Below are positions 3,702 through 30,390 of a stretch of 39,094 nucleotides of DNA, one piece after another. The DNA is from Verrucomicrobiota bacterium (GTDB taxonomy: Bacteria > Verrucomicrobiota > Verrucomicrobiia > Opitutales > Opitutaceae). The translations under genes and the position numbers were made by a program. Position 1 is the stretch's first letter. Every line of letters begins with the position of its first letter. The notes beneath the pieces were generated by a model. The model saw nothing but the letters and a program-made list of their open reading frames with translations. It did no database searches and was not told the DNA's origin. The stretch lies in assembly GCA_030604905.1 (NCBI GenBank), contig JAUVVA010000023.1, forward strand, positions 1 through 39,094, in the 5' to 3' direction.

Positions 3702-3805
3702 CCCGGCGACGGGCCGGCGGCTGCTTGCCGCTCGTTCGCCGTTTTGATTGCACGGTCTTCGTTACCTCGTTCGCGTTTCCTCTTTCAAGTTAGTTGCCCT
3801 TAATC

Positions 3806-11444: not shown

Positions 11445-13481
11445 TCAGGAGCGGCGGTCGGACGCCTGCTGGGCGGCGTCGAGTAGGGCGCTGAAAGGCC
11501 TTTCCAGGGCGGCCTCCAGTTCTTCGGCATCAAGGCGGTAAATCAGGATCGAGTAGCCTACGTGAGCGTCGTGTCCGCGCAGGCGCAGGTAGTGGCAGAG
11601 ACGCGCGAAGCGCAGGGTCTCGAAGCGGCGCCATCTCCTGTCCCAGTCTTGCAGTGGCAAGATGGCGAGCAGTTCCGGGTCCTGTGGGTTCTCTTTGAGG
11701 CGGCGGAAGGAGGGATTGAGCGCTCGCCCCGCTTGGTATTCCGCCTCATTCTCCGTGGTCCAAGGGCCGCGCACCGGTTGGTAGACGTGCTGCAGCATCG
11801 TCGCGCTGATCGCGTAGATGCCCGGCTCCGGCCATGTCCAGGGCCGTGTGGTTCGAAAATCGAGAATCGTCGGGAGGCGGACCGCATCTATGGCAAAATG
11901 ATCCGGATCATCGCTGCCGAAATACGAGAGGTGCACCTGCTCGTTCTCGCGGCGATGGAGCAGAATCCAGTCGCGCAAGCCTGGTAGATCCTGCCCCCAA
12001 TCCAGAGAGCTGTCGACGAGGCGGCGGTGGCCTTGTTCCGGACCGCCCGCGAGCGGGCTGAAATAGGCCAGATAGTGCGGGTGAATCCGAGCGGCCTCGA
12101 CCACGTGTAACAAGAGCAGCAGGGCGGCGGGCGCTATCATCCAGCGGCGGCGTCTTGCGGGGACGAGTGCGGGTGCGAGTGCTGCGACGAGTCCCGCGAG
12201 AACGTAAAGAGCGGGATACGTGGGTAGGATGTGGCGGTGCCCGATGTTGAGATTGCTCGTGATTGAGATCGCCCAATAGACGCCGAAGGGCAGGAGAAGG
12301 GGCCAGAGCCAGTGCGCGCCGGGAAGGAGTGGTCCCCCGGTCATGCGGCGCCGAAGCAGGGCAGCCACGAGGAGCGCGCCCCCAAGCAGGCTCGCGGCAA
12401 GCAGCGCGGGCGGCGTCTTGTAGAGCAACGTTTTCGGGAAGAAAGAGATCCAGCCGTGTATCGAGTAAGCCCCGTCGAGGAAGGCTCCGCGGGCTTCACT
12501 GTGCTTGAGCACGTAGGCGAGTCCGTAGAGGTAGCCTTCCGGGAGGAGATGGTGGGTGCGGCAGAGCGCGATGACCCAGCCCGGGAATCCGAGGCCTGCG
12601 CCGACATAGTCCCACGGGGCGCTGAAATCGCCCGGCGGCAGTTCGGGGTTGAGCGCGGCGTAGCGGAAACCGAAGAAGGCCCAGATACCGAAGCAGGCGA
12701 CCAGCGCGTGCACGGCGGCCGACCCGAGCATGCTCCCGAGTTGGCGCAAGAGCGGAGGCGGTGGGTGCTCGCATGTGGAGCGGCTCCGCCAGAGATGGAC
12801 GGCGGCAAGCGCGGCCAGCGTTGGGGGAAGGAGGACGGCGCTGAATTTGGCGACGCAGGCGAGCGCGAAGCAGGCTGCGCTCAGGGCGAGCGAGGCGGTG
12901 CTCCGGGTGCGGAGATGCCACCACCAGGCCGCGGGGCTGGCGAGCCACAACAGGGTCATCGCCATGTCGGACGTGGCGAGCGGGCCGTGTGCGAGCATGG
13001 TCGTGCAGGCGGCGGCGAAGGCCGATGCCGAGAGCCCCGCCGCGGGGCCAGCGAGGCGCCAGGCCCACCAGCCCACCAGCAGCACGACGCCGGCGGCGAA
13101 GAGCGTGTTCATCGCGCGGGCAAGGAAGAGCAGCCGGTCGCCGTCGTTGCCGGATTGGCGAAGAAAAAGATGCGCGAATTGCCAGACGTCTGCCTCGCGC
13201 CAAGCGATGTGGTCCAGCGGCGGTGGAATGCTCTCGCTGAAAACCGCCGGCAGGGCATGGAGCCGCTGCGGGAGGATGCCATTCTCCGGCTGCATTCGGT
13301 AGTCGTGCAGGGTATTGAACACATACCCGCCCATGATGTGCGCCGGCTCGTCGACGGTGGCCGACTTCTCGCGCATCGCGGCCAAGCCGCCTAGAACATG
13401 TGCCAAGACCAGCAGTGCCAGACAGCCCACGGTGGCCAAAGCACGCTTACTCGGTGCGAAAATGCCGGAATAGCCCCTCAC
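11445..13481 (-). CDS. GT39-like GT-C membrane glycosyltransferase, minus-strand copy 2
   Basis: A 678-residue polytopic protein with the start GTG overlapping the previous stop by 4 bp (GTGA). The acidic pair Asp44-Glu45 in TVDEPAHIMGG lies after the first membrane helix, followed by DYRMQPENGILPQRLHALP. LATSDMAMTL, NIGHRHILPTYPALYVL and DSSLDWGQDL appear later. These motifs are shared with the paralogue upstream and with a family of phospholipid-carrier-dependent glycosyltransferases. The long hydrophilic C-terminal part (from about 500) should be periplasmic. It is last in a four-gene minus-strand operon whose first two genes encode polyprenyl-phosphate-sugar synthases, the likely donor source. 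Confidence 0.8.
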   Translation of the reverse strand: MRGYSGIFAPSKRALATVGCLALLVLAHVLGGLAAMREKSATVDEPAHIMGGYVFNTLHDYRMQPENGILPQRLHALPAVFSESIPPPLDHIAWREADVWQFAHLFLRQSGNDGDRLLFLARAMNTLFAAGVVLLVGWWAWRLAGPAAGLSASAFAAACTTMLAHGPLATSDMAMTLLWLASPAAWWWHLRTRSTASLALSAACFALACVAKFSAVLLPPTLAALAAVHLWRSRSTCEHPPPPLLRQLGSMLGSAAVHALVACFGIWAFFGFRYAALNPELPPGDFSAPWDYVGAGLGFPGWVIALCRTHHLLPEGYLYGLAYVLKHSEARGAFLDGAYSIHGWISFFPKTLLYKTPPALLAASLLGGALLVAALLRRRMTGGPLLPGAHWLWPLLLPFGVYWAISITSNLNIGHRHILPTYPALYVLAGLVAALAPALVPARRRRWMIAPAALLLLLHVVEAARIHPHYLAYFSPLAGGPEQGHRRLVDSSLDWGQDLPGLRDWILLHRRENEQVHLSYFGSDDPDHFAIDAVRLPTILDFRTTRPWTWPEPGIYAISATMLQHVYQPVRGPWTTENEAEYQAGRALNPSFRRLKENPQDPELLAILPLQDWDRRWRRFETLRFARLCHYLRLRGHDAHVGYSILIYRLDAEELEAALERPFSALLDAAQQASDRRS

Positions 13482-15586
13482 GGTGTGTTGGAGCTTGCTT
13501 CCGGCGGCGGCAGGTCGAAGGCGGGCCGTAGGAGTATTTCCTGCAAGTCCGCGTCGGTGAGGGCGAAGACCAAAAACTGGTTGGCAACTATGGCGTCGGG
13601 CGCGCGTGATCTGAGTCCGTGGATCAGCTTGCCGAGTCGTAGGTGGTCGTAGTTCGCGAGACGCTTCGCCCCCGTTTCCTGGAGCAGATCATACCGGGTG
13701 AGACCGTCCCAGAGTGGAGGGGGAGTTTTTCGCCAGAACTCGAATTGTTTCCAGTAGGCGACTTCGAACTCGGGGGTCCAAGGGCCCCGGACATGCGTGT
13801 AGGTCCTTTGCCACATCGTCGCGCTGATGACATACAATCCGGCCTCGAGGGGGTGGATGTAGAAGCCGGGTTGGCCTATGCGGAAATAATGGTCGCCGAA
13901 GCGGCGCGCCTCGATACCCAGCCTCTCCGGTCGATCGGAGCCGAAGTAGGAAAGGAACACCGGCTTCTCATTTGCATGGGCATCGAGCCATTGTTTGAGC
14001 GCAGGCAGGCCCTGTCCCCAGTCGAGCGAGCTGTCCACGAGGAATCGATGCCCGGCGGCGGGGCCACCCGCGATCGAGTTGAAGTAAGTGAGGTAGTGGG
14101 GGCGGATGGAGAGGGCGGTCCAAGCTTGCGCGGCCAACAGCACCGCGGCCGCGGCGAGGGCGGATCGGCGGCCGATGCGGGAGGCAATTTGGCGGTGGCA
14201 AAGGGCGCTGAGGACAAAACCAAGGGCGTAGACCGGCAATAGGTGGCGGTGGCCGATGTTGAGGCTGGAGAAGATGGAGAAGCCTCCGAGCACGATGATG
14301 GCCACGACAAGCGGGGCGGACCGATACAAGAGCCTTCGCTCGCTCCGTTTCCGGCTTAGCAACATGGCGATCCAGATCGCCGCGCCCAAGCCGCCTAGAA
14401 TCAGTTCCGGGGGGCTGCTCTTCAGCAGCGCGGCAATCGGGAAGAAGGACCGCCAGCCGGTGAAGCGCCATTCTCCGGCGAGGAAGGCGGGGCGCATCCG
14501 GGCGTGGAGGTCGACGTAGGCCAAGCCGTAGAGCCACGCTTCGGGCAGCAGACGATGATCGCGGGAGAAAGCGATCACCCGATGGATCGTGCGTGGGCGG
14601 ATGACGACCGAGACCACGTTGGTCTCGTCTGCCAGTTCAAAGAGCCCTTCATAAGCCTCGGCCGGCAAAATCTTGTCCCAAGAGCGATCGAAACCTGCTT
14701 CGACCGGGGCCCTTGGACCGGCGGCGGAGTATCTGAAGCCGTATCCAGCCCAGATGGTGAGCACCGCAAGCAGGGCTGCGACCACGCCCGCGGTCCCGAG
14801 CGCCAACACGCGGGAGCCGTTGGCAAGGCGACGCGGCTTCGCGCCAAACCAGCCTGAGGCGACGATGGAGCGGCGGGTGACCAGGACGAGCAGAAGCAGA
14901 GCCGCGGCTATCGGTGCCAGGAGCACACCCGAAAATTTAGCGAGGGCTAGCAACCCGGCGGAGATGCCGGCAAGCGCCACCCGGGTCGGAGTGACGCGAT
15001 GGAGCAGGCGCCACCAGAAAAGAATGGCCGCAACGAAGCCGACCGCCGCTGCAGTGTCCGATGTGGCGAGGCCGGCATGGGCGAGTAGAGTGGGGCTTAG
15101 GCCGGCCAGACCTGCCGCCAAAAGCCCTCCCGTCTCACCTCCGAGACTGCGTCCCCAGAGCCCGATCAGGAAGACACCCAAGGCGCCCAAGGAGGCGATC
15201 ATCCAGCGGCCGCGTTTCAGGATGTCGGGCAGGTGATTCCCGCTTTCATAAAAATACACCGCGCCCAAGCCCCACACGTCGCCTGTGGCCCACTTCTTCG
15301 AGTTTGAGGAGTCGCTTTGGAGATCGGGGAAGCGAACATCGTTCGCCAAGACATTGGGTAGTGCGGCGAGCCGCTGGGGGAGCAGGCCGTTTTCGGGCTG
15401 AAGCCGAAAATCCTGCTCGGTCCAGTAGGTGTGGCCGGCGGTGAGATGCGCGATTTCGTCCGACGTGACGCCGATCTCGTCGGAGACGGAGGCGGCGAGC
15501 CAGGCGTGGAGTGCGGCGAGAAGGGTGAGGAGGAGGGGGAAAACGAGTCGTCGGGCCTGCCGGCGAGTGGCGAGAGCGGGATCCAT
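13478..15586 (-). CDS. GT39-like GT-C membrane glycosyltransferase, minus-strand copy 1
   Basis: A 702-residue integral membrane enzyme, a close paralogue of the gene that follows it. Shared landmarks are TSDEIAHLTAG with Asp43-Glu44, DFRLQPENGLLPQRLAALPNV, LATSDTAAAV, LALAKFSGVLLAP, LNIGHRHLLPVYALGF and DSSLDWGQGLPALKQWL. The acidic pair in the first extracytoplasmic loop is the known catalytic region of GT-C PMT/ArnT enzymes. The ATG at 15586 lies 7 bp after the GtrB-like gene, so the two are co-transcribed. Expected reaction: transfer of a sugar from a lipid phosphate to a periplasmic acceptor such as glycolipid or protein. The acceptor is not deducible. Confidence 0.82.
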   Translation of the reverse strand: MDPALATRRQARRLVFPLLLTLLAALHAWLAASVSDEIGVTSDEIAHLTAGHTYWTEQDFRLQPENGLLPQRLAALPNVLANDVRFPDLQSDSSNSKKWATGDVWGLGAVYFYESGNHLPDILKRGRWMIASLGALGVFLIGLWGRSLGGETGGLLAAGLAGLSPTLLAHAGLATSDTAAAVGFVAAILFWWRLLHRVTPTRVALAGISAGLLALAKFSGVLLAPIAAALLLLVLVTRRSIVASGWFGAKPRRLANGSRVLALGTAGVVAALLAVLTIWAGYGFRYSAAGPRAPVEAGFDRSWDKILPAEAYEGLFELADETNVVSVVIRPRTIHRVIAFSRDHRLLPEAWLYGLAYVDLHARMRPAFLAGEWRFTGWRSFFPIAALLKSSPPELILGGLGAAIWIAMLLSRKRSERRLLYRSAPLVVAIIVLGGFSIFSSLNIGHRHLLPVYALGFVLSALCHRQIASRIGRRSALAAAAVLLAAQAWTALSIRPHYLTYFNSIAGGPAAGHRFLVDSSLDWGQGLPALKQWLDAHANEKPVFLSYFGSDRPERLGIEARRFGDHYFRIGQPGFYIHPLEAGLYVISATMWQRTYTHVRGPWTPEFEVAYWKQFEFWRKTPPPLWDGLTRYDLLQETGAKRLANYDHLRLGKLIHGLRSRAPDAIVANQFLVFALTDADLQEILLRPAFDLPPPEASSNTP

Positions 15587-15593
15587 CGGAAAA

Positions 15594-16559
15594 TCAGGAG
15601 CGGCGGCGCACCACGTAAAGCGGCCGGTTTTTCACCTCATCGTAGACGCGGGCCAGGTATTCTCCAAGGATGCCGATGCCGATCAGCTGCACGCCTCCCA
15701 AGAAAAGCACCAACGTGACGAGGGTGGTGAAGCCGGTGAAGGCGACCTCAAGGCCGAGGATCCGTCGCGCGGCGAAAAACGCCGCGACCGCAAAGCCACC
15801 GCCGGCGAGGAAAACGCCGCAGTAGGTGAGCAGGCGAAGCGGCAGGTAGGAGAAGCTGAAAATCCCGTCCAGCGCATAGCGGATCAGACGACGGTAGGTC
15901 TGCCCGGGTTCGCCCGCGAAGCGCTCCTGCCGGTCATAGAGGACGTGTTCGACTCGAAAGCCGACCCAAGATCTCAGCGCCGGGAAGAAGCGATTACGTT
16001 CCGGCAGGTCGAGCAGCGCCTCGAGCGCATCACGGCTCATCAGCCCGAAAGTGCCGGTGTTGGGCTCGACCGGGTAATCGACGAGTCGGGCGAAGGTCCG
16101 GTGGAAAAGCTGGAAGCTCATGCGCCTGAGCCCCGTCTCGGCGCGGGAGCGGCGCACGGCGAGGACGACCTCTGCGCCCTCCGACCATCGCTCGGTCATC
16201 GCGGGGATGACCTCGGGCGGGTCTTGGAGGTCGGCATCCATGGTGACGACCGCGTCGGCGTCCGCGGCGTGCCGAAGGCCGGCGAGGAGGGCGGCTTGAA
16301 AGCCAAAGTTGCGGCTCAGGCGGACAAGCACGAAGCGGGAGTCGACGTCGCACTGTTTCGCGATCAGGGCGGCGCTGTTGTCCCGGCTGCCATCATCCAC
16401 GAGCACGGCGGACCACCCGATGGAGGGCTTGGAATCAAAGACGGCGGCGAGGCGGCGGAAGAGCTCTCCCAGTCCGGCCTCTTCGTTGAATACCGGCATG
16501 ACGACCGATATCCGGGGCTGCGGCGTGCGATGGGGGGCGGTTGCCGGTGGATTGGGCAT
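15594..16559 (-). CDS. GtrB/DPM1-like polyprenyl-phosphate glycosyltransferase
   Basis: A 321-residue GT2 enzyme followed by two membrane helices. The catalytic domain shows ISVVMPVFNEE, AVLVDDGSRDNS, RNFGFQAALLAGL, VTMDADLQDPPEVIPAM (DxD) and a region with FGLMSRDAL. The C-terminal 90 residues hold two hydrophobic helices (LTYCGVFLAGGGFAVAAFF and FTTLVTLVLFLGGVQLIGIG) ending ILGEYLARVYDEVKNRPLYVV, the signature of the GtrB/YfdH/CsbB group. Such enzymes make undecaprenyl-phosphate-glucose or similar donors for GT-C transferases, which are encoded immediately downstream here. The ATG at 16559 is preferred over a TTG at 16595 that would add a 12-residue tail of ordinary composition. Confidence 0.9.
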   Translation of the reverse strand: MPNPPATAPHRTPQPRISVVMPVFNEEAGLGELFRRLAAVFDSKPSIGWSAVLVDDGSRDNSAALIAKQCDVDSRFVLVRLSRNFGFQAALLAGLRHAADADAVVTMDADLQDPPEVIPAMTERWSEGAEVVLAVRRSRAETGLRRMSFQLFHRTFARLVDYPVEPNTGTFGLMSRDALEALLDLPERNRFFPALRSWVGFRVEHVLYDRQERFAGEPGQTYRRLIRYALDGIFSFSYLPLRLLTYCGVFLAGGGFAVAAFFAARRILGLEVAFTGFTTLVTLVLFLGGVQLIGIGILGEYLARVYDEVKNRPLYVVRRRS

Positions 16560-16635
16560 CGGCTGACGACCTGTCGATGTGTGTGGCCGCTGCAAGACCG
16601 TAAAAGGCGGGGGGCGAGGCGGGCTTCGGGCGCGA

Positions 16636-17337
16636 TCAGCGGATCAAGTTGTATTTGAGAATCGCATACAGGGCGCGGAAGCCGTCGCGCCAGCCGATCT
16701 TTTTGCCCTCCTTGTAGGTGCGGCCGTAGTAGCTGATGCCGACCTCGTAGATCGAGATGTCGTCGATCTTGGCGACCTTGGCGGTGATCTCGGGCTCGAA
16801 GCCGAAGCGGTTTTCCTCGATGGTGATTTGTTTCACGACGTCTTTTTTCATCACCTTGTAACAGGTCTCCATGTCGGTGAGGTTGAGGTTCGTGAACATG
16901 TTGGAGAGCAGGGTGAGGAACTTGTTGCCCATGTAGTGCCAGAAGTAGACCACGCGGTGCGGGCCGCCGCCGAGGAAGCGCGAGCCGAAGACGACGTCGG
17001 CCTTGCCGGAGAGGATGGGGGCGAGGAGCTGCGGGTATTCCTGCGGGTCGTATTCGAGGTCGGCGTCCTGGATGAGGACGATGTCCCCGGTGGCGGCGGC
17101 AAAGCCGGTGCGCAGCGCGGCGCCTTTGCCTTGGTTGACCTCGTGATGGAGGATCTGGTCCACGAGCGGCGCGATCTCGGCGCGGAGGACATCGCCCGTG
17201 CCGTCGTGCGAGCAGTCGTTGACGATGATGATCTCCCGTGCGATGCCGGCGGGCAGCGGGGCGGCGCGCACGGCGTCGACGATGGTGCGGATGGTGCGGA
17301 CCTCGTTGTAGCAGGGGATGACGATGGAGAGCTTCAT
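16636..17337 (-). CDS. DPM1-like GT2 glycosyltransferase
   Basis: A 233-residue soluble GT2 enzyme: [15 protein letters not shown] at the N-terminus, [38 protein letters not shown], the DxD site in [28 protein letters not shown], then [17 protein letters not shown] and [14 protein letters not shown]. This is the DPG-synthase type of dolichol/undecaprenyl-phosphate sugar synthase without C-terminal membrane helices. The ATG at 17337 is directly before the conserved strand; the frame stays open upstream to 17976, but that part is antisense to the flippase gene. It is first in the minus-strand operon, 76 bp before the GtrB-like gene, and divergent from the flippase across 184 bp that must hold both promoters. 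Confidence 0.9.
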
Positions 17338-17521
17338 GCCTAAGGGGCGGGCTATGGGTTGTGTTGTCCACGAACAAGAAGGCGGTCGCCTCTCAAGCCA
17401 AGGGAGTTGTGAGCGGGCAGCGGAGAGGAGGGATTGACCCGCTGGTGAGCGAGGGCAGCGTGGCCCCGACGATGAACATCGGGATGTCAGACGAGCGTGC
17501 GGTGATGAAGAGAGGCGGGGT
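17338..17521. promoter_or_regulatory. Divergent intergenic region between GT2 and flippase operons
   Basis: The 184 bp separate two operons that point away from each other, so both start here or close by. I could not identify a convincing -35/-10 pair on either strand. A GAGG just upstream of the flippase ATG (17511-17514) is a possible ribosome binding site. Confidence 0.4.
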
Positions 17522-18835
17522 ATGAGCGGGAGGGGAATCCGGGGCGTATTGCGCGGGATCGGACGGGGTCGCGGCTGGGATTTTACGGTGTTGATCGCTG
17601 ACAGGTTCGCTCGTTTGCCGATGAGCCTGTTGGTCGCGGCGGCAATTGGAAGAAGTGTTGGGCCTGAGGACTTCGGCCGACTAAGCCATAGTCTGGCTTT
17701 GGTTGCCGTGTTGATGGTCCTCGCGCAGCTTGGCCTTGATCTTGTGGTAGTGCGGCGGCTGGCACGGGAGCCTGAACGCGAGGCGGCGATTTTGGGCGGA
17801 GCAATTGTGGCGCGATTGCTGGCGGGGGGGATGTTGTGGTCGGTCGGAGTGGCGGTTGCGCTGTTGATGCTGAACAGCGGCCGCGATGAGTTGTGGTTGC
17901 TGGTGGTGCTGTCGCTTGGGGTGTTCTCGCCGGCTGGCGGTGTGTCAGCTCTTTGGTTCCAAGCGCGGACGCGCAACCGCGTGGTGGTGGCGGTGGGATT
18001 GGTCGTTTTTGTGGCGATGTCTGCGCTTAGGCTAGGGATGGCGGCGCGAGGCGCGCCGTTGCTGACTTTCGCATGGATAATGGTTGTCGAGTGGGCCTTG
18101 ACCGCGTGGGCGGTGAGCTGGGCGATGAGCAGGGAAGGCGGACGTGTGGATTTGCGCGGGGGAATGGCAGAAATGCGTGGCCTCTTGGCAGAGGGTTGGC
18201 CGTTGTTGGTCGGCGCGCTCGCCTCGGCCTTTTATATGAAGGCGGACATTCTTGCCCTGCGGTGGCTGCGCGGGGCCGAGGAGGCTGGCGTGTTTGCCGC
18301 GGCAACGCGACTGAGCGAGGCGGCCTACGGGGTGCCAGCCTTGCTCGGGATGGTGTTCATGGCGGGCTTGAGCAGTGGAGGGGCGGCGGAGTCAGCCCAC
18401 CTTCAGGAGCGGACGGATGCTTATTTTCGTGCCAGCACGGCGTTGGGCTATGCGCTGGTCTTGCCTATGGCTCTCGTGGGGCCGTGGCTGGTGCCGGCGA
18501 TGTTTGGCGAGGCCTATGCGGGCGCGGCGGCCGTGGCTCAGGTGCACGCGATCTCGGTGTTTTTTCTCGCGCTCACGTTGGCGCGGGGACGCGTATTGGT
18601 GGTCAGGGGGCGCGGGCGCTTCACGATGGTGAGCGCGTTGTTCGGGGCGGTGGTGGTGTTGCCGCTTCATTGGCTTCTGATTCCTCGGTGGGGGCCGATC
18701 GGAGCGGCGTGGGCGACGGTGGCCGTGCATGCGCTCTCCGGGATAGGGCTGACCCTGGCTTACGCGCCGACGCGCGAGGTTGGGCTGGATTTGTTGCGGG
18801 CAATGGCGCGGCCGAGCTTTCGGGGGTTGCGATAG
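17522..18835 (+). CDS. Wzx-like polysaccharide flippase (MATE/MVF-type exporter)
   Basis: A 437-residue protein with about twelve hydrophobic segments and the layout of polysaccharide biosynthesis exporters. The N-terminal block reads [40 protein letters not shown], which resembles the opening of the RfbX/Wzx family: the helix, a short polar turn, then [10 protein letters not shown] second half begins at [25 protein letters not shown], the internal repeat typical of the family. The length is normal. It would move lipid-linked oligosaccharides across the cytoplasmic membrane. It opens a plus-strand set in which the next gene is a kinase/methyltransferase fusion 116 bp on, then four GT2 genes. 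No Wzy polymerase is recognisable in the window. Confidence 0.85.
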
Positions 18836-18951: not shown

Positions 18952-20280
18952 ATGCTTAAAACAGTGAACAATCCAATCGGTGCCGATCTGATGGAGGAGG
19001 CCGCCGCTTGGCGTGAACAGGTTTTCCGTTGGCTAGGCTCATTCGCCAAGCTGGTGCATGTCAGCGCGCACAGTAACGACGTGCGGCTCTATCGGGCGGG
19101 GGAGCGCGTTCTCAAGCTGCGGCGTCTGACGCCCGCGGCGATCCGGGGAAGGCCCAACACGCTGCAGGACGAGTATGAGGCATTGCAGCGGGTGGCGGCG
19201 GCGAACATGGACGCGTATTGGCAGTTCCCGCGCGCGTTGCGTTACCACTACGAAAATGGGTGGGAGGGGCTGGAGTTGACGGCGGTGGAGCCTGCGCCCG
19301 CGTTCGATCCTGTCTTGCATCCGTTTCGGGAGAAGGGCGCGGCCTTTTGGAGGCTGGCTCGTGGCGTGGCACGTCTGAACATGGCGGGACTTTCGCATGG
19401 GGACCTAACGCCGGCCAACGTCGGGTTTAATTCCAATGGAGCGGCGGTGATGCTCGATTTCGATCAATGCGTCGCCGCGCATCCGGCACGCTGTTTGTTG
19501 CGAGATTTTTTTGGCGTCGCATGCGCCGATCAGCCGGCAAAATACACTTTGTGGAATCGAGCGGGGCGCGTGTCTGGATGGAGTTGCCTCCGATGGTCTG
19601 AGCGCATTCGGGAACGGCTGAGGAGGCGGAGGCGAGGGTATTCGCCGCCTGTTGCGGCATTGGCGCAACAGGCGGAGATGCGGGGCGATTCCGAGTTGGC
19701 GGCGTTGACGCGTTGTTGGGCGGCGGCCGCGGAGTCGGATGCGAACAGCCCGGGCTCGGGGGTGGCCTATTATTCTCTCGATTTGCGCGGATTCCACCTG
19801 CCGGGGGAGCGCCCGTGGCCTTTGCGCTGGGAAATGCTGCATTCAGCCGTGTCTTTTCGCGACAAGCGCGTGGTCGAGCTGGGATGCAACCTGGGCTTGC
19901 TGGCGATCCATGCTCGGCTTTCGGGAGCGAGCTCAGCTGTGGCGGTGGATCACAACCTTGCGATCGTTGAAGCTGGGAGGATTCTGGCCGGCCTATGCGG
20001 CGTCGGCGTAGAGTTCGGGCAGGTGGATTTTGACAAGGATGCGGATTGGGAGCAGCGGCTGGGGGGAGGCGATTTGGTCACCGCGCTTTCCCTGACCTTT
20101 TGGTTGCAGGATAAGGACCGTGTCTGGCGTTATCTCGGTCGTTTCCCCGAAGTGATTTTTGAGGGGCATGAGCCTGTCGAGGAGGTTGAGGAGCGTTTGC
20201 GGACAATGGGGTTTTTGCATGTAGTCCAGATCGGCCGTTCCGAGCGCAACCGCGTTGTCTTTCATGCGCGCAAGGATTGA
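18952..20280 (+). CDS. Kinase-like and SAM methyltransferase fusion protein
   Basis: A 442-residue soluble two-domain protein. Residues about 30-220 have a protein-kinase-like fold of the aminoglycoside/lipopolysaccharide-kinase type: Lys55 in ERVLKLRR, a glutamate in DEYEAL (74 or 76) for the C-helix, the catalytic loop HGDLTPANVGF with His149, Asp151 and Asn156, and the metal-binding DFD at 169-171. An Arg-rich linker follows (about 212-230). From about 290 a class I methyltransferase is visible: VVELGCNLG at 307-315, AVAVDHN with Asp333, and DLVTALSLTFWLQDKD at about 374-389. All key residues of both domains are present. The nearest known analogue is WbdD, which phosphorylates and methylates the O-antigen end, but its order is methyltransferase then kinase. 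Function here is inference. Confidence 0.8.
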   Translation: MLKTVNNPIGADLMEEAAAWREQVFRWLGSFAKLVHVSAHSNDVRLYRAGERVLKLRRLTPAAIRGRPNTLQDEYEALQRVAAANMDAYWQFPRALRYHYENGWEGLELTAVEPAPAFDPVLHPFREKGAAFWRLARGVARLNMAGLSHGDLTPANVGFNSNGAAVMLDFDQCVAAHPARCLLRDFFGVACADQPAKYTLWNRAGRVSGWSCLRWSERIRERLRRRRRGYSPPVAALAQQAEMRGDSELAALTRCWAAAAESDANSPGSGVAYYSLDLRGFHLPGERPWPLRWEMLHSAVSFRDKRVVELGCNLGLLAIHARLSGASSAVAVDHNLAIVEAGRILAGLCGVGVEFGQVDFDKDADWEQRLGGGDLVTALSLTFWLQDKDRVWRYLGRFPEVIFEGHEPVEEVEERLRTMGFLHVVQIGRSERNRVVFHARKD

Positions 20281-20301: not shown

Positions 20302-21033
20302 ATGTCCCGCGTTTGGTTAAGCTTCGTAACGGTTTCCAAGGATGATGCCCCCGGGCTTAGTCGAACCCTCGCGAGCGCGGCGGGGTGGCGAGCGCGGGGC
20401 GGGGTGGAGCAGATCGTGGTGTATGCGGGCGCCGAGCCGGATGCGTTGCCGGAGGGCGTGCAGGGTTTGCGCCAGGAGGGCGAGGGTATCGCCTCGGCGT
20501 TCAACGAGGGGCTGCGCGTGGCGCGCGGCGAGTGGGTGTGGTTTCTCAACGGGGGCGACGCCTTGCACGAGGAGATCTCGCCCGATTGGATGGAGGCGCT
20601 GCTTTCCCGCACTCGCGCGGACTTGGTGGTGGGCTGTATTCACGCAGACGGTGACGCTGGGCCGAGGGTTCTTGCCCCGTTGCACGAACAGTGGCCGCCG
20701 CTGCACTGTTGGTTGCCGCATCCGGCGACCTTGGTTCGACGCCAGGTGTTAATTGGTGTCGGTGGCTTCTCGACGCGCTATCGGGCGTGCATGGATTTCG
20801 ATCTCTGGCAGCGGCTCCTTGGCGCCGGAGCGCGCGCGGATGTCGTTAGGATGTCGTTCGCGCGCTTCGATCTGCGGGGCCTGAGCAGCCGATCAGAGAA
20901 CGTTGGGCTCCTTTTCCGTGAAAATGGGGTCGTTTTGTGGCGGCATCAAGGCGTTGTCTGGCGCGCTATTCTGCGAAGCGCGTTTGGGCTGTTACTTGCT
21001 TGGCTGCGGGCGCTGCGTCATTGGTTGTCCTGA
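20302..21033 (+). CDS. GT2 family glycosyltransferase (WcaE-like)
   Basis: A 243-residue enzyme with the compact architecture of colanic-acid-type GT2 proteins: WLSFVTVSKDDAPGLSRTLA, QEGEGIASAFNEGLRVARGE, WFLNGGDALHEE as the metal-binding region (the DxD equivalent is GGD), then PHPATLVRRQVLIGVGGFSTRY and ACMDFDLWQRLL. The last 30 residues are rich in Arg and hydrophobic residues and may lie at the membrane. It follows the fusion gene by 21 bp and precedes the next GT2 gene by 8 bp, so it is part of the same operon. It should add one sugar to a lipid-linked intermediate in the cytosol. Confidence 0.83.
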   Translation: MSRVWLSFVTVSKDDAPGLSRTLASAAGWRARGGVEQIVVYAGAEPDALPEGVQGLRQEGEGIASAFNEGLRVARGEWVWFLNGGDALHEEISPDWMEALLSRTRADLVVGCIHADGDAGPRVLAPLHEQWPPLHCWLPHPATLVRRQVLIGVGGFSTRYRACMDFDLWQRLLGAGARADVVRMSFARFDLRGLSSRSENVGLLFRENGVVLWRHQGVVWRAILRSAFGLLLAWLRALRHWLS

Positions 21034-21041
21034 GCCTCGTC

Positions 21042-21869
21042 ATGAGTTTGGACATCACCGTCATCGTGCGGACCTCAGGCCGACCGCGCTGTTATCTGGA
21101 CAGGGCGCTGGAGTCTATTCGAGCGCAGACCCTCCGGCCGGCGCAGTTGATCCTGTCCGATGACATGGGTGTGCGGGCGCCCTTGGGCGAAGATGGTGCA
21201 CTGCTTTGGTTGACGAGATCGCCCGACGAGCGGCCGAATCGATCCCGCGCCTTGAATCGCGCCATTGGGCATGCGACTTCGCCGTGGCTGGCCTTCTTGG
21301 ACGATGACGATACGTGGGCTCCTGATTTTTTGGCTCGGATGAGCGAGGCCGCAGCCGGCTCCGCAGGGGCCGGGGCTTTTTGCTGCCGCACCGAGGCGCG
21401 ATATGAAGACGAGCAGGACGGAGTCTTTACCGATTTGGGCGCGGAGCCCTTCAACCCCGGCCTTTCCGAGATCACCGTCGCCGCGCTGGTGAGAAGGAAT
21501 CTTTTCACCAACCACGCCGCGCTTTGGCGTCGTGAAGTATTTTCCAAAACGGGCGGTTATCGTGAAGATCTCGAGGTGTTGGAGGATTGGGAGTTCAACG
21601 TGCGCGCGTGCCGGCTTTTTCAGCTGTGCGTAGTGCCGTTGACACTTGCGCGCTATCATCAAAGGCCACGCCTCCATGGCGGCGGGCAGGCGGCAAATTC
21701 ATCGAGAAGCCAGCATGACGTCGTTCTCGCGCGGCTCACGAAAGAGTGGCGTAGCGCGGGATTGCTCCCGCCAGATCGCGGGTGGCATTGGTTGATGAAT
21801 CGTTTGCGTGGGGGGCGGCACCGCTGGGCGCGTTGGCGTTTTGCCGTGCGATGGGAGCGGAAGTCATGA
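21042..21869 (+). CDS. GT2 family glycosyltransferase
   Basis: A 275-residue enzyme. ITVIVRTSGRPRCYLDRAL, ESIRAQTLRPAQLILSDD, NRSRALNRAIGHATS, the acidic LAFLDDDDTWAPDFLARM and NHAALWRREVFSKTGGYREDLEVLEDWEF show a complete GT-A GT2 domain with the second acidic cluster that usually holds the catalytic base. The ATG at 21042 is chosen because it precedes the conserved strand and leaves 8 bp after the previous stop; an in-frame upstream start would extend into the preceding gene. The stop overlaps the next start (ATGA). The C-terminal tail is very basic. Confidence 0.86.
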   Translation: MSLDITVIVRTSGRPRCYLDRALESIRAQTLRPAQLILSDDMGVRAPLGEDGALLWLTRSPDERPNRSRALNRAIGHATSPWLAFLDDDDTWAPDFLARMSEAAAGSAGAGAFCCRTEARYEDEQDGVFTDLGAEPFNPGLSEITVAALVRRNLFTNHAALWRREVFSKTGGYREDLEVLEDWEFNVRACRLFQLCVVPLTLARYHQRPRLHGGGQAANSSRSQHDVVLARLTKEWRSAGLLPPDRGWHWLMNRLRGGRHRWARWRFAVRWERKS

Positions 21870-22813
21870 GCGGGCACGGCCCTCCGGCATCCGTGTCGAC
21901 GCTCTGCGCCGTGGTGGTGCTCTTCCGTCCCGAGCCCGAGGTGAGCGAAAACCTGCGCGCGCTCGTGCGGGAATGCGGCCACGTGGTGGTAGCGGATAAC
22001 GGCTGCCCGGCGGAGTTTCGTCTCCATCTCGAAGCAATCCCCGGGGTGGAGTGGTTGGCGATGGGGGGCAATGTGGGGGTGGCGACCGCGCTCAATCGCT
22101 GCTTGGCTCGGGCGGATGCGCGGGGATTCAAATGGGTGATCACTTTTGACCAGGATAGTATGCCCGAGCCGGGCTTGGCTGACGAGCTTCTCGCAACGGC
22201 GCGGAGGATCGAGCGGAGCGGGGTTGTTGGACCTTGTATCTTTGATCCGGCCCTCCGGCGGGCGCATACATGGCTGCGCCCAAATGCCGCCATTCCAGTC
22301 TTTTTCCAGCGGACGGCGTCTGGGGGACGGGACATTGATGAGGTTACGATGGTTATCACGTCGGGGGCTCTGACGTCGGTGGCGGCGTGGCGAGCTGTCG
22401 GTGGGTTCGATGAGACGCTCTTCATCGATTTCGTAGACACGGATTTTTGTCTGCGGCTGCGCCGCGCGGGTTGGCGGGTATCCGTGAGCGGAGCCGCGCG
22501 TTTGGCGCACAAGCTCGGGCGGCGCGAGAGGCGTCGCGCGCTTGGTGTTAGTTTTCATCCGACCCATCATGTTCCTGTCCGACATTACTACATTTGTCGG
22601 AATCGCCCGCGGATGATCGCGCGGCATGGCCTTCGGGAACCGCACTGGCTTCTGTTCGAGCTTTGCGCGGCGGCGATGTGGGTGTTCCGAGTTCTTGCGT
22701 TTGAGGGTGACCGAACGAGGAAGATAACGGCGATGATTCTGGGAACCTGGGACGGGTTGCGCGGACGCAGCGGGATCTGTCCGCCGGAGCGAATGAGCCG
22801 CTTTGTCGCATGA
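21866..22813 (+). CDS. GT2 glycosyltransferase (rhamnosyltransferase-like)
   Basis: A 315-residue enzyme resembling rhamnosyltransferases of the RfbF group. CAVVVLFRPEPEVSENLRAL, VVVADNGCP, MGGNVGVATALNRCLA, FDQDSMPEPGL (DxD variant), ITSGALTSVAAWRAVGGFDETLFIDFVDTDFCLRL and RAGWRVSVSG follow in family order. Hydrophobic helices near 270-295 (LLFELCAAAMWVFRVL) may tether it to the membrane. The ATG at 21866 overlaps the preceding stop, and the frame upstream only shadows that gene. The following gene starts in the stop overlap ATGA, so translation is coupled along this group. Confidence 0.86.
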   Translation: MSGHGPPASVSTLCAVVVLFRPEPEVSENLRALVRECGHVVVADNGCPAEFRLHLEAIPGVEWLAMGGNVGVATALNRCLARADARGFKWVITFDQDSMPEPGLADELLATARRIERSGVVGPCIFDPALRRAHTWLRPNAAIPVFFQRTASGGRDIDEVTMVITSGALTSVAAWRAVGGFDETLFIDFVDTDFCLRLRRAGWRVSVSGAARLAHKLGRRERRRALGVSFHPTHHVPVRHYYICRNRPRMIARHGLREPHWLLFELCAAAMWVFRVLAFEGDRTRKITAMILGTWDGLRGRSGICPPERMSRFVA

Positions 22814-23775
22814 CGCCGCTCCTCTCCATCATTATCGTCGCCTATAGCTCGCGCGGAGAGATCGGGGACTGTCTGCGCTCCCTGCCCCGGGAGATCGGTG
22901 GGCGGGCGGTGGAGGTCGTCGTGGTGGACAATTCCCTCGATACCGACGGCACGGGCACGGTGGCGCGCGAGGCGTATCCGGAAGCGGACTACGTGGTGCC
23001 GGAGACGAATCTGGGCTTCGGGAGGGCAAACAACTTCGGCTATGGGCGGACGCACGGGGAGTGCGTGCTGTTTTTGAACCCCGACACCGTGTGCACGCTC
23101 GCCGCGCTGGAGCATTGCGTCGCACGCGTGCGGGCGGAGCCGGAAATCGGGCTGATCTCGCCAAAACTCGTCATGGCCGACGGAGGCATGGACCTCGCGT
23201 GCCGACGCAGCGTGCCGACGCTTTGGGATGGGTTTTGCCGCGCGAGCGGGCTCGCGGCGGCGTTCCCGCGCAGCGCTTGGGCGGCGGGGTATAACCTCAC
23301 GCACCTCGACCCGGAGGGGACTTACGAGGTGGGGGCGATCAATGGAGCCTTCCTGCTCGGGCGGCGCGAGGTGCTGGAGGCGGTGGCGGAGAAGAGGGCC
23401 GAGCCGGGGCTCGGCGTTCCCGGGGGCGGAGCCGTCCATGCTCCGGCGGGGCGTCGGGTGCAGGTGTTTGACGAACGCTTCTTCATGTATGGGGACGATA
23501 TCGACCTCTGCATCCGCGTGCGGAAAGCCGGCTGGCGCGTCGTGTATGACGGGCGGGTGGCGATCACCCATCTGAAAGGCCTGAGCGTGGCCAAGAGCTA
23601 CGAGGTGATGTCGGCCGCCATCTTCGATGCGAATCGTGACGTTTACCTAAAACACTTCAACCCGCGCGGCTCGCGTTTGGTGGAATGGAAGTGGCGCGCG
23701 GCTTTCGGTGCCTGGAAAGCGGTTTCGCGGTGGCGGGCGCGCTTGCGAGGCTATCGGCAGGTAAAGCCGCTTTAG
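22810..23775 (+). CDS. GT2 glycosyltransferase (WbbL-like rhamnosyltransferase)
   Basis: A 321-residue protein: LLSIIIVAYSSRGEIGDCL, VEVVVVDNSLDTDG, NLGFGRANNFGYGRTHGE, VLFLNPDT (metal site), GAINGAFLLGRREVL, then FDERFFMYGDDIDLCIRVRKAGW with the acidic catalytic-base cluster, and ITHLKG. This set is the standard pattern of WbbL-type enzymes in O-antigen, cell-wall and exopolysaccharide loci. It starts inside the previous stop and is the last gene of the plus-strand group, 14 bp before a tRNA gene that reads in the opposite direction. Donor sugar (dTDP-rhamnose in the best studied members) is not proven by sequence. Confidence 0.88.
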   Translation: MTPLLSIIIVAYSSRGEIGDCLRSLPREIGGRAVEVVVVDNSLDTDGTGTVAREAYPEADYVVPETNLGFGRANNFGYGRTHGECVLFLNPDTVCTLAALEHCVARVRAEPEIGLISPKLVMADGGMDLACRRSVPTLWDGFCRASGLAAAFPRSAWAAGYNLTHLDPEGTYEVGAINGAFLLGRREVLEAVAEKRAEPGLGVPGGGAVHAPAGRRVQVFDERFFMYGDDIDLCIRVRKAGWRVVYDGRVAITHLKGLSVAKSYEVMSAAIFDANRDVYLKHFNPRGSRLVEWKWRAAFGAWKAVSRWRARLRGYRQVKPL

Positions 23776-24000: not shown

Positions 24001-27000
24001 TTATTCGACCTCGACCCAACGGCCGAGGCCGGTGGCGTAGAGGAGGCGGCGCACGCGGCAGGCGGGGAACATCGCGGCGAGGGCGCGGCCGTAGGCGCGG
24101 AGCTGCGGCGCATATTCGGCCTCGAGGCGGGCGAGGAAGGCCTCCTCGGTCTCGGCGGCGCGGCGGCGGTTGGTCTTCCAGTCGAGCACCCATACCTCGC
24201 GCGCCTCCCCGTCGTGCAGCACGAGGTCCATCACGCCGTCCATCCAGGCCTCGCCTTCGTCGTCGAGCGGCGCGAGCACCGAGAGCTCGGCGAGACGCGT
24301 CCAACGCGCGTCGCGCAGTTCGCGCCAGGCCTCGCCGCGGCGAAACAGCTCCCACTCGGCGCGCGCGCGGGCACCGGCGCCGATCTGCTCGGCGGCGGCG
24401 AGGCGCTTTTGCACGTGCGCGTCGATCTCGGCCTCGGAGCGCAACCAAGGGATGAACTCGACCGTCTCGTGCCACCAGAGGCCGTAGGCGATCGGGTCTT
24501 CGCCGACGCGCGGCGAGGGCAACAACTCGTCGCCGCTTTCGTGGCGTGCCGCGCGCGGGGCATCCTCGGCGTGCTCGGCGAGCTGGTGGGGGAGGAGGCG
24601 GCGCGCGGTGGGTTGCAAGGGCGGCGCGGGTGGCGGGACGGGATCGGTGGCGGGAGCGGTGGCGGGACGGTGGCTCGAGGGTTGTTCGCGGTCTCCGGCG
24701 AGCGGAGACCCTACAGGGGCGGTGGCGGGCGCGGGGGCTGCGTCGGCGGAGGCGGCGGAAAACTCGGGCAGGCTGGCGAGGGGGTGGCCCCAGAGCGCGG
24801 CGAAGGACTGGGTGTGCGGGGCGGTCTCGGCCGCATCCCAGGGCAGGAGGAGCAGGCGGCGCGGGCGGGTGAGCGTGACGTAGAGCAGGCGCACGAGTTC
24901 GCGGCGGCGCTCGCGGGCGCGCGATTCCTTGGTGTGCTCGGGCACGTCGTCGCTGCGCAGGTAAACCACGGGCTCGCCGGCGGCGTCGCGGAGGACTTGC
25001 AGGCCTTTGCCGTGATCGAAACTGATCTCGCGCCAGAGGCCGGGCACGAGCACGGCGGGCCACTCGAGGCCTTTGGCGGAGTGGCAGGTCTGCACGGTGA
25101 TGGCGTCGGGCTCGCTGCGGCTTTCGGCGCGGCCGCCGTGGCGGCCTTGGAGGAGTCGCTCGGCCCAGGCGCGCGGGGTGAGTCCCTCGACTGCGCCGGC
25201 GCGCGCCTCGGCGCGGAGGCGCTCCAGCTCGCGGAGGGTGGCGCCGCTCGTGTCGGCGGCGCGGGCCTTGGCCTCGAGGTCGGTGGCGGCGATGAGGCGT
25301 TCGCACCAGAGGTCGAGCTGCACGGCCTCGTCGTCCACCGATTGCACGAGCGGGCGCAGGGCCTCAAGCGCGGCGCGCAGCGGCTCGGCGTGGACCTCGG
25401 GGCTTTCCCATTCGAAGCGGCCGCGGCGCAGTTTTTCGCGGGCGAGGAGGGAATCGCCGAGGGCAAAAATCTCGCGCAGCACGCCGAACCATTCGTAGTC
25501 GTCGTCGGGTTCGCAGCAGACGGTGGCGAGGCCGGCGAGCCAGGCGTAGGCGGACTGGTCGCCGAGCTCCTGTTGTTTGCTCTGGCGGGCGACCTTGAGG
25601 CCGGCCTGTTCGAGGGCCTCGACGGCGACGTCCATCCATTTGTTGCGCGCGACGAGCACGCAGAGGTCGCCCCAGTCGGCGAGGCCGAGGGCGGCGGGCG
25701 TGCGGTCGTGGAGCCAGGCGGCGATTTGGCGCATCTCCTCGCGGAAGGTGTCGCCGCGTTTTTTCGCGGGCTGGCCGGCGATGCCGGCGAGGGGGAGGCG
25801 GGCGACGGCGCCGGGGGCGTTGGAGGGGCCGGCGACGAGGGCTTGGTAGGCGACCTGGAGGAGGGGCGCGTCGGCTCCGTCGGCGGGCGGGAGGCCGAGG
25901 TTGTGCTCGCGCTCGGCGGAGAAGGCGGCGGGCAGGGACGCGTTGAGCAAATCCACCGCGGCGCGCGGGGCGCGGAAGGTGACCTCGAAGTCGAGGCGGT
26001 CGCCGGCCGCGCCGCCGTCGAAGGCTTCGAGGTGGCGCTGGAAGGTGCGCACGGAGGCGCGGGAGCTGTAGATGGATTGCTGGCCGTCGCCGACCATGCA
26101 GAAGCGGCCGGGGAGGGGCGGCGCGCCGTCGCCGGGCCAGGTGCCGGGCTGGGCGTCGGCGGGGCGGGTGAGCTCGACCAAGATGGAGAACTGCGCCTCG
26201 TCGGTATCCTGCGCCTCGTCCAGGATGATGCGCCAGCCGGCGGCGCGGGCGGCGGCAAGGGTGCGCGGGTGGCGGAGCAGGTCGCGGGCGGCGGCGACCT
26301 GGTCGGAGAAGGTCTGCACGCCGGCGGCGCGGCGCCAGGCGGCGAAGCGCTCGGCGATCTCGCCGGCGGCGGCTCCGGCGGCGACGGCGGCCCAGCGGGC
26401 GAGCGGGGCCATCCAAGCGTTGGCGGCGACCTTGGCGGGGGCGGCGGTGCCGGCTTGTTTGAAGAGGCCGAGAAACTCGACGCTGTCGGGCTCGGCGGCG
26501 CGGCGCGCCCAGTCGGCGGCGAGCTCCTTGGTCTTGCGGATGTTTTTCGCGCCGGTGCCTTTTTCGGCGAGGGCAAGGATTTCCTGGAGGCCGGTCTCGC
26601 TGGCGCGGGGCGGGAGGCCGCGGGGGGCGCGGGAGCGGAGGATGCGGGCCTCGCCGGGCTCGAGCTCGCGCGCCTGGTCGAGCACGTCCTCGAGGCGCAC
26701 GAGGCGGAAGAGCCAGCGGGCGGAGGCGGGCGTGAGCGAGCCGAGGGTGAGCGGATCGCCGGAGAGAAAATCCTCCCAGGCGGCGTCGGCGCCGCGGGCG
26801 TCGAGCACCTCGGGGGCGAGGTCGAGGCCGGCCTCGTGGCCGTGCTCGCGGGCGAGCTTGAGGCAGAAGGAGTGGAGCGTGCCGAAGAAGGCGCGTTCGA
26901 GGTGTTCGAGCGGGGCGAGGTCGGCGCCCGCGCCGCGCTCCTCGAGGCGGCGGAGGAGGCGCTCGCGGGCGCGGGCGCCGATCTCCTCGGCGGCCTTGAG

Positions 27001-27249
27001 CGTGTAGGTGACGACGGCGGTGCGGCGCAGCTCCTTGGCGCCCTCTGGGTCGAGGGCCATGGCGGCGAGGCGCTCGGAGATGGCGGTGGTCTTGCCCGAG
27101 CCGGCGTTGGCGGAGACGGCAAAGTTGCGCCGCCATTCGAGCCGGAAACGCTCGCGGGCGGCGTGGTCGGCGACGGGGGCGTGGGCGGGCGCGGCGACGG
27201 TGGGCGCGGTGGACAAATCGGTGGGCGAGGCAGGCGAGGAGTTAGTCAT
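24001..27249 (-). CDS. addA: AddA-like UvrD/RecB-type helicase-nuclease
   Basis: A 1082-residue protein combining superfamily 1 helicase and RecB-type nuclease domains. Walker A NAGSGKTT with Lys53 lies after a 40-residue low-complexity N-terminus. THSFC-like FGTLHSFC, Walker B LDEAQDTDEAQ near residue 345, VGDGQQSIYSSR, FRAPRA and QTCHSAKGLEW correspond to helicase motifs Ia to V. The last 100 residues carry the nuclease site: GVMDLVLHDG, VWVLDWKTN and the YAPQLRAY motif. It would unwind and cut double-stranded breaks to load RecA. It overlaps the upstream addB-like gene by 8 bp. Codon usage is extremely GC-rich, with runs of Ala and Arg, and the long antisense open frames there are artefacts. 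Length is somewhat shorter than B. subtilis AddA. Confidence 0.9.
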   Translation of the reverse strand: MTNSSPASPTDLSTAPTVAAPAHAPVADHAARERFRLEWRRNFAVSANAGSGKTTAISERLAAMALDPEGAKELRRTAVVTYTLKAAEEIGARARERLLRRLEERGAGADLAPLEHLERAFFGTLHSFCLKLAREHGHEAGLDLAPEVLDARGADAAWEDFLSGDPLTLGSLTPASARWLFRLVRLEDVLDQARELEPGEARILRSRAPRGLPPRASETGLQEILALAEKGTGAKNIRKTKELAADWARRAAEPDSVEFLGLFKQAGTAAPAKVAANAWMAPLARWAAVAAGAAAGEIAERFAAWRRAAGVQTFSDQVAAARDLLRHPRTLAAARAAGWRIILDEAQDTDEAQFSILVELTRPADAQPGTWPGDGAPPLPGRFCMVGDGQQSIYSSRASVRTFQRHLEAFDGGAAGDRLDFEVTFRAPRAAVDLLNASLPAAFSAEREHNLGLPPADGADAPLLQVAYQALVAGPSNAPGAVARLPLAGIAGQPAKKRGDTFREEMRQIAAWLHDRTPAALGLADWGDLCVLVARNKWMDVAVEALEQAGLKVARQSKQQELGDQSAYAWLAGLATVCCEPDDDYEWFGVLREIFALGDSLLAREKLRRGRFEWESPEVHAEPLRAALEALRPLVQSVDDEAVQLDLWCERLIAATDLEAKARAADTSGATLRELERLRAEARAGAVEGLTPRAWAERLLQGRHGGRAESRSEPDAITVQTCHSAKGLEWPAVLVPGLWREISFDHGKGLQVLRDAAGEPVVYLRSDDVPEHTKESRARERRRELVRLLYVTLTRPRRLLLLPWDAAETAPHTQSFAALWGHPLASLPEFSAASADAAPAPATAPVGSPLAGDREQPSSHRPATAPATDPVPPPAPPLQPTARRLLPHQLAEHAEDAPRAARHESGDELLPSPRVGEDPIAYGLWWHETVEFIPWLRSEAEIDAHVQKRLAAAEQIGAGARARAEWELFRRGEAWRELRDARWTRLAELSVLAPLDDEGEAWMDGVMDLVLHDGEAREVWVLDWKTNRRRAAETEEAFLARLEAEYAPQLRAYGRALAAMFPACRVRRLLYATGLGRWVEVE

Positions 27250-30295: not shown

Positions 30296-30390
30296 TGCGC
30301 GGGCCGTGAGGACTAGCGGGCGTGGGCGCGGGGACAAGCGCGGCGTGGCGGAGGGGTGGGGCGGAGGAGCCGGGCGGGCGGGGCAAAAAC

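Follow-up and report, generated by a model that had tools for sequence, protein, structure and literature searches.

A predicted kinase-methyltransferase fusion with its domains in the reverse order of WbdD lies among glycan genes in a Verrucomicrobiota bacterium and has relatives in distant bacteria

The window (the whole stretch of DNA that was analysed, 39,094 nucleotides from a contig of a Verrucomicrobiota bacterium) contains a plus-strand run of genes comprising a flippase gene, a gap of 116 nt, a gene for a 442-residue protein, a gap of 21 nt and four family 2 glycosyltransferase (GT2) genes that end at 23775. Judged from its sequence, the open reading frame at 18952-20280 is predicted to encode, in this order, a kinase of eukaryotic type and a class I methyltransferase (MTase). 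The genes of this neighbourhood are as follows.

15594-16595 and 16636-17376, minus strand: two further GT2 genes, left of the flippase gene
17522..18835, plus strand: Wzx-like flippase gene (PF01943, 63.5 bits; PF13440, 49.9 bits; both above cut-off)
18952..20280, plus strand: kinase-MTase fusion gene, 442 aa, ATG start, with four full-length homologs
20302..21033, plus strand: GT2 gene (PF00535, 32.9 bits)
20937..21869, plus strand: GT2 gene, true start probably further 3' (PF00535, 48.2 bits)
21782..22813, plus strand: rhamnosyltransferase-like GT2 gene (PF00535, 30.1 bits; TIGR01556, 148.4 bits, below its cut-off of 200.55)
22810..23775, plus strand: GT2 gene (PF00535, 58.1 bits)

The first-pass annotation had named a Wzx-like flippase as the neighbour of the fusion, and the two Pfam matches of the gene immediately upstream bear this out; its score against NF041871 (Wzx_EPS) was 41.6 bits, far below the cut-off of 800. 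To the left of the flippase, the minus strand also carries two genes with sub-cut-off PMT_2 matches. Four genes with PMT_2 (GT39-type) matches, two per strand, lie at 3794-7548 and 11445-15586 of the window, and one of the four scored above the Pfam cut-off. No ABC transporter gene adjoins the window fusion gene. Wzm- and Wzt_C-type exporter genes are found elsewhere in the same genome (contig C153, L064:11938-14158), so the fusion could serve a Wzm/Wzt exporter in trans.

A kinase and a class I MTase in a single protein of a glycan cluster are also found in WbdD, described as the chain terminator of Escherichia coli O8/O9a and Klebsiella pneumoniae O5/O3, where termination consists of phosphorylation and methylation in an ABC transporter-dependent pathway (PMC3482155, PMC11231755). 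The domains and motifs of the window protein are arranged as follows, all on the plus strand.

19051..19734: kinase domain, approximately residues 34-261 (bounds inferred), from the kinase-half profile against the PDB and Foldseek kinase chains
19396..19419: kinase catalytic loop HGDLTPAN, residues 149-156; H149, D151 and N156 identical in 5/5 proteins; aligns with the WbdD loop
19456..19464: metal-binding DFD, residues 169-171, identical in 5/5
19735..20277: class I SAM MTase domain, residues 262-442, from Pfam, NCBIfam, Foldseek, the MTase-half profile and homologs
19804..19830: GERPW..RW motif, residues 285-293, N-terminal of the SAM motif; G285, E286, R287, P288, W289, R292 and W293 identical in 5/5
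19870..19896: SAM-binding motif VVELGCNLG, residues 307-315; E309, L310, G311, N313 and G315 identical in 5/5
20158..20169: invariant FEGH, residues 403-406, from the five-protein alignment
20239..20253: SER.R motif, residues 430-434, candidate basic site; S430, E431, R432 and R434 identical in 5/5

Pfam analysis of the kinase half gave matches to Kdo/WaaP (PF06293) at 17.0 bits, under the cut-off of 21.3, and to APH at 15.4 bits, likewise below cut-off. The MTase half matched Methyltransf_23 (17.1 bits), Methyltransf_25 (16.1 bits) and PrmA (15.2 bits), all sub-cut-off, and the NCBIfam scores of the protein (TIGR04290, 23.4 bits; PrmA, 22.4 bits; Kdo kinase, 20.0 bits) fell far under the cut-offs. 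When the window's genome was searched with PF06293 in all six frames, no match at E<=0.001 was returned. The sub-cut-off Pfam matches are not due to chance, because four full-length homologs have the same domain order; one of these, G091, reaches 25.9 bits against PF06293, above the gathering score of 21.3 that the window protein fails to reach. The earlier reading of the gene as a kinase followed by an MTase with intact motifs was upheld by the alignment, in which all five full-length proteins agree in the kinase catalytic residues and in those of SAM motif I.

AlphaFold models of the window protein and of a Bacteroidetes relative (L053) had mean pLDDT values of 62.8 and 71.8, respectively; since they were built on an alignment of four sequences, they speak for folds and not for sites. 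Foldseek matches, given without aligned ranges, were headed for the window model by CmoB-type and other MTases, with kinases (lanthipeptide synthetase) from rank 39 of the best 50, and kinases were also among the best 50 for the L053 model. The kinase chains in both lists favour the kinase fold that had been assigned to the N-terminal domain; WbdD was absent from the best 50 matches of either model. CmoB-type MTases are tRNA enzymes and are not known to carry a kinase. The CmoB family (PF08003) scored 18.8 bits with the L053 relative, below the cut-off of 23.8, and was not among the Pfam matches of the window protein at E<=10.

The kinase-then-MTase order was found in four other full-length proteins, two from the window's phylum (genomes G059 and G091) and two from metagenome-assembled genomes titled Bacteroidetes (G696 and G697). 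They are 28-34% identical to the window protein, and each of the five genomes holds one full-length copy. Three sets of genomes were searched, with up to four candidates scored per genome, which limits sensitivity. Among 387 genomes of the window's phylum, the window protein retrieved itself and the full-length G059 protein (E 5.4e-54), and G091 was recovered by its MTase half alone (E 2.9e-27); 37 of the 387 genomes had a match at E<=0.001, and beyond the window's own genome (G000), G059 and G091 the other 34 matches lay within one half. A three-row profile (A2) run against 372 genomes of the order retrieved G000, G091, where it matched both halves at 579.6 bits, and a remote protein in G434 (72.1 bits). 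Matches at E<=0.001 were obtained in 250 of these 372 genomes, and among the matches listed all except these three span one half only; in the five other genomes of the window's genus even the best matches were weak (E 1.0e-6 to 5.5e-5). Across 395 genomes of the phylum of the first Bacteroidetes copy, the only full-length protein was that copy, and two of the three matches at E<=1e-12 were kinases alone. A scan of genome_contigs, limited in sensitivity by its need for one of two short peptide patterns, yielded 108 stretches with three relatives among them; two are titled Bacteroidetes bacterium, and the third, titled Verrucomicrobia bacterium, has the ORFs of G059.

Of the 925 stop-to-stop ORFs with a length of 150 aa or more in 70 records, 15 contained both domains. 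After overlapping loci were taken into account, these represent seven proteins: the five full-length kinase-MTase proteins, the remote G434 protein and a protein of reverse order in G206. Loci L058, L060 and L066 were used at most in the ORF list and in the both-domain and GT2-match comparisons. The kinase-first family thus looks rare and patchy in the genomes covered. Searches of viral contigs, phage records and plasmid records gave no fusion relative, and a viral, phage or plasmid origin was rejected on this basis. A chance fusion or assembly error was rejected as well, given that the order recurs in four other genomes.

Of 29 alignment positions looked up, 25 are identical in all five proteins; positions 333, 334, 359 and 383 vary. 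The invariant residues include K55, E74, H149, D151, N156 and D169 in the kinase and E309, G311, N313 and G315 in SAM motif I, together with Y273, Y274, R287, W289, R292, W293, D374, W384, D387, E404, H406, S430, E431, R432 and R434. Conservation is uneven, the MTase halves of the homologs being 37-46% identical to that of the window protein and the kinase halves 19-26%; at this level of divergence, the kinase substrates may differ. The two Bacteroidetes copies are under purifying selection, as indicated by a dN of 0.069 against a dS of 0.390 (NG86). The G059 protein, from the window's phylum, shares 37-39% identity with the Bacteroidetes copies and only 34% with the window protein, which hints at transfer. 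Horizontal transfer is taken as a lead only, because the five-row gene tree leaves one of its two inner branches open and places G091 on a very long branch.

Inspection of the five full-length loci revealed a glycosyltransferase or glycan-export gene next to the fusion in every case. In G059, a flippase gene (PF13440, 129.4 bits), the fusion and a GT4 gene share one orientation, and more GT4 genes, a Wzy_C gene and a Poly_export gene lie close by. At both Bacteroidetes loci a GT2 gene lies directly upstream of the fusion (in L053 by Pfam, in L054 through its match to a window GT2), and across the compared loci these two genes pair with the window GT2 at 20302..21033 as reciprocal best matches. 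The other genes of L053 and L054 appear, by eye, to encode a sugar-phosphate transferase and glycosyltransferases. The G091 locus has a gene for an ABC2_membrane protein (PF01061, 74.5 bits) and one for an ABC ATPase with a Wzt_C domain (36.5 bits; cut-off 30.4), followed directly by the fusion. Downstream of it are an NAD synthase gene and then epimerase and UDP-sugar dehydrogenase genes; Glf, an MTase-GT2 fusion and glycosyltransferase genes lie within about 30 kb, and an unrelated efflux set occupies the other side on the other strand. The G091 fusion has an N-terminal extension (L032:7558-8980) of about 470 residues if the ORF's first start codon is taken as its beginning. The extension had no Pfam match and gave five weak matches in the PDB, every one a repeat protein of the solenoid type and four being designed proteins.

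Flippase matches were obtained in all six genomes searched, and they fell on the contig of the fusion in G000 and G059 only, so the two Bacteroidetes genomes gave none there. Wzt_C was found in three of the six, adjoining the fusion in G091 and on other contigs in G000 and G059; it was not found in G696, G697 or the G434 genome. The occurrence of the same order beside flippases in related genomes, which the first-pass annotation had proposed as a check, therefore holds for G059 and fails for G091 and the two Bacteroidetes loci.

The invariant D151, N156 and D169 of the fusion align with the catalytic Asp, the Asn and the metal-binding Asp of the WbdD kinase. Kinase-first order, already noted for the window protein as the reverse of that in WbdD, holds in five of five full-length proteins. 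The WbdD gene adjoins wzm and wzt; the window fusion differs in adjoining a flippase gene, and the G091 fusion resembles WbdD in having Wzm/Wzt genes with Wzt_C as neighbours. The fusion shows no extended coiled-coil ruler: in the window model, the 442 residues hold the two domains, and no helix exceeds 20 residues, residues 180-234 being poorly predicted. PMC3482155 names H132 and H133 of WbdD as MTase active-site residues, lines a sulphate pocket with R31 and R36 and places R203 in a basic phosphate site. In a weak alignment, the two histidines correspond to F383 and W384 of the window protein; position 383 is a histidine in one of the five homologs (G091), and W384 is identical in all five. 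R287 and R292 of the fusion are spaced as are R31 and R36 of WbdD, which may be a coincidence. Invariant R287, R292, H406, R432 and R434 of the MTase half could bind phosphate.

A five-row joint profile searched against the PDB ranked WbdD first (E 8.5e-15) and StkP next (8.6e-11), the WbdD match consisting of a kinase stretch of 40.1 bits and an MTase stretch of 15.4 bits (i-E 0.058). With the halves split, the kinase profile scored StkP (47.6 bits) above WbdD (44.3 bits), and many other kinases also matched. The MTase profile, at E<=0.01, did not have WbdD among the best 60 of 72 PDB chains; the first chains were a putative arginine MTase, methylphosphate capping enzyme (MePCE) and phosphoethanolamine MTases. 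The top rank of WbdD in the joint search is therefore the sum of two domains, since the split halves rank it lower. Full membership of the WbdD family was rejected on domain order, the coiled coil, the histidine pair and the MTase half.

The two domains, their catalytic motifs, their conserved order, the glycan-gene neighbours and the Wzm/Wzt neighbourhood of G091 can all be read from the sequences; we infer that the substrate is a glycan, that phosphate is the methyl acceptor and that modification precedes export. We propose that the protein is a bifunctional glycan enzyme whose kinase phosphorylates a lipid-linked glycan and whose MTase methylates that phosphate, and assign this reading a probability of about 0.5. 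At the inner membrane face, the N-terminal kinase would phosphorylate a hydroxyl group of a sugar in a polyprenol-linked glycan, and the C-terminal MTase would methylate the new phosphate to give a methyl phosphate group, a plausible product for the fusion. In the window operon, the adjoining flippase would then flip the decorated or capped oligosaccharide. In G091, the fusion would act as chain terminator and its product would be recognised by the Wzt_C domain. In WbdD systems (O9a), Wzt_C recognises the modified chain end; if the proposal is correct, the G091 Wzt_C domain should bind the cap made by the fusion, which makes this locus a clean test case. Conservation of the order in all five proteins, and of the fusion in two phyla, fits sequential reactions on one substrate. 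The reading is also favoured by the gene settings in G091, G059 and the window, by the reciprocal GT2 matches, by the first rank of WbdD with the joint profile and by the invariant basic residues of the MTase half. Against it count the composite nature of that first rank, the absence of WbdD from the best 50 Foldseek matches of either model, the unconserved histidine pair, the missing coiled-coil ruler, the lack of an ABC transporter gene next to the window fusion, the failure to find Wzt_C in G696, G697 and G434, the low identity of the kinase halves, the NAD synthase gene next to the G091 fusion and the position of the remote G434 gene among flagellin genes.

The kinase could alternatively modify one position of the lipid-linked glycan while the MTase O-methylates a sugar hydroxyl or other group elsewhere on the same molecule, so that two separate decorations arise and no methyl phosphate is formed. 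The MTase half has no specific likeness to the WbdD MTase and lacks counterparts of H132/H133, and it has diverged much less than the kinase half, as though each had its own target group. That the domains are nevertheless fused in all five full-length proteins and in a remote sixth, and that the G091 fusion sits where a terminator belongs, leads us to regard two unconnected decorations as rather unlikely.

Concerning origin, the first-pass annotation had suggested independent assembly of the fusion, and this is probably right: the MTase half, without WbdD among its best 60 of 72 chains, suggests separate assembly and not a swap, and the kinase half places WbdD just behind StkP. Derivation from a WbdD family member by rearrangement (circular permutation) would account for the first rank of WbdD in the joint PDB search, with both domains matching, and for the presence of both orders in one phylum. 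The second order is that of G206, where an MTase-then-kinase protein (L070:4635-6002) scores highest in the PDB against WbdD, with 31.8 bits on the MTase. We nonetheless consider a swap unlikely, as chains other than WbdD, with the arginine MTase and MePCE first, make up the whole of the best 60 for the MTase half and as the G206 protein is only weakly similar to the kinase-first profiles (kinase, 20.8 bits; MTase, 32.7 bits). ORF6 of K. pneumoniae O7 is described as a methyl-phosphate terminator of an ABC transporter-dependent pathway, set apart from WbdD by sequence and predicted structure, with a kinase domain in which its authors saw no sequence similarity to known kinases (PMC11231755). 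By the same description, it shares with the window fusion a kinase-MTase pair within a glycan cluster and differs in its MTase-first order, coiled coil and fused GT2 modules (PMC11231755). This account points to more than one origin of methyl-phosphate terminators, and with the WbdD-order protein of G206 it indicates that the kinase-MTase combination was probably built more than once.

A protein substrate such as flagellin or a glycoprotein, or a regulatory role, with the glycan cluster incidental, would suit the high scores of StkP-type Ser/Thr kinases with the kinase half and the flagellin setting of G434, but appears improbable, since all five full-length loci have an adjoining glycosyltransferase or glycan-export gene and the G434 locus, which could be one of protein glycosylation, fits glycan modification too. 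The G434 protein (L056:6467-11052) has a weak TPR match, then the kinase, then the MTase; it is flanked by two flagellin genes, and a GT41 (OGT-like; Glyco_transf_41) gene lies nearby at L056:12336-14675. Its scores against the fusion profiles were 25.4 bits (kinase) and 44.4 bits (MTase); Pfam detected the MTase and no kinase family at E<=0.01. We are unsure, on these scores, whether it belongs to the fusion family; the locus may possibly modify a flagellin glycan.

The export route proved a poor guide to the kind of fusion. The contrast drawn earlier between a flippase neighbour and an ABC transporter does not define the kinase-first proteins: G091, with the same order, follows ABC2_membrane and Wzt_C ATPase genes, and a flippase adjoins the fusion in only two of five loci (the window and G059). 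It fails from the other side as well. The G206 protein, fused and flippase-adjoining like the window protein, lies directly behind a flippase gene (PF13440, 205.9 bits), with glycosyltransferase genes and a Wzy_C gene following (L070:3160-6002). Order therefore does not predict export route in these loci. More tentatively, with somewhat less confidence than an even bet, we suggest that the kinase-first proteins are a further methyl-phosphate glycan enzyme class of independent assembly, passed between phyla as a module and working with either export route, as a terminator with the Wzt_C ABC system of G091 and as a flippase-linked cap or decorator in the window and G059. If so, finding a kinase-first version next to flippases, and next to Wzm/Wzt in one relative, would mean that the chemistry was assembled repeatedly and that phosphorylation and methylation are not tied to one export pathway. 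Methyl-phosphate termination is already known from WbdD and K. pneumoniae O7. Among the open-licence papers listed on WbdD, methyl phosphate and flippases, no title or abstract opening describes a kinase-first glycan kinase-MTase fusion, and PMC6120980 and PMC6254364 carry WbdD in their reference lists only.

Immediately beyond the GT2 genes, the minus strand of the window (24001-30337) encodes a UvrD-type helicase with a PDDEXK domain and a second PDDEXK protein, an AddAB-like pair. Its G+C content is 0.745-0.759, compared with 0.616-0.665 for the run from flippase to GT2, and this step at 24001, judged on the adjoining genes compared, would suit an acquired glycan island. A separate MTase-GT2 fusion is encoded at 8056-9726 of the window; a 49% identical copy is present in G091 (L059:8228-9667), about 18 kb from the kinase-MTase fusion of that genome.
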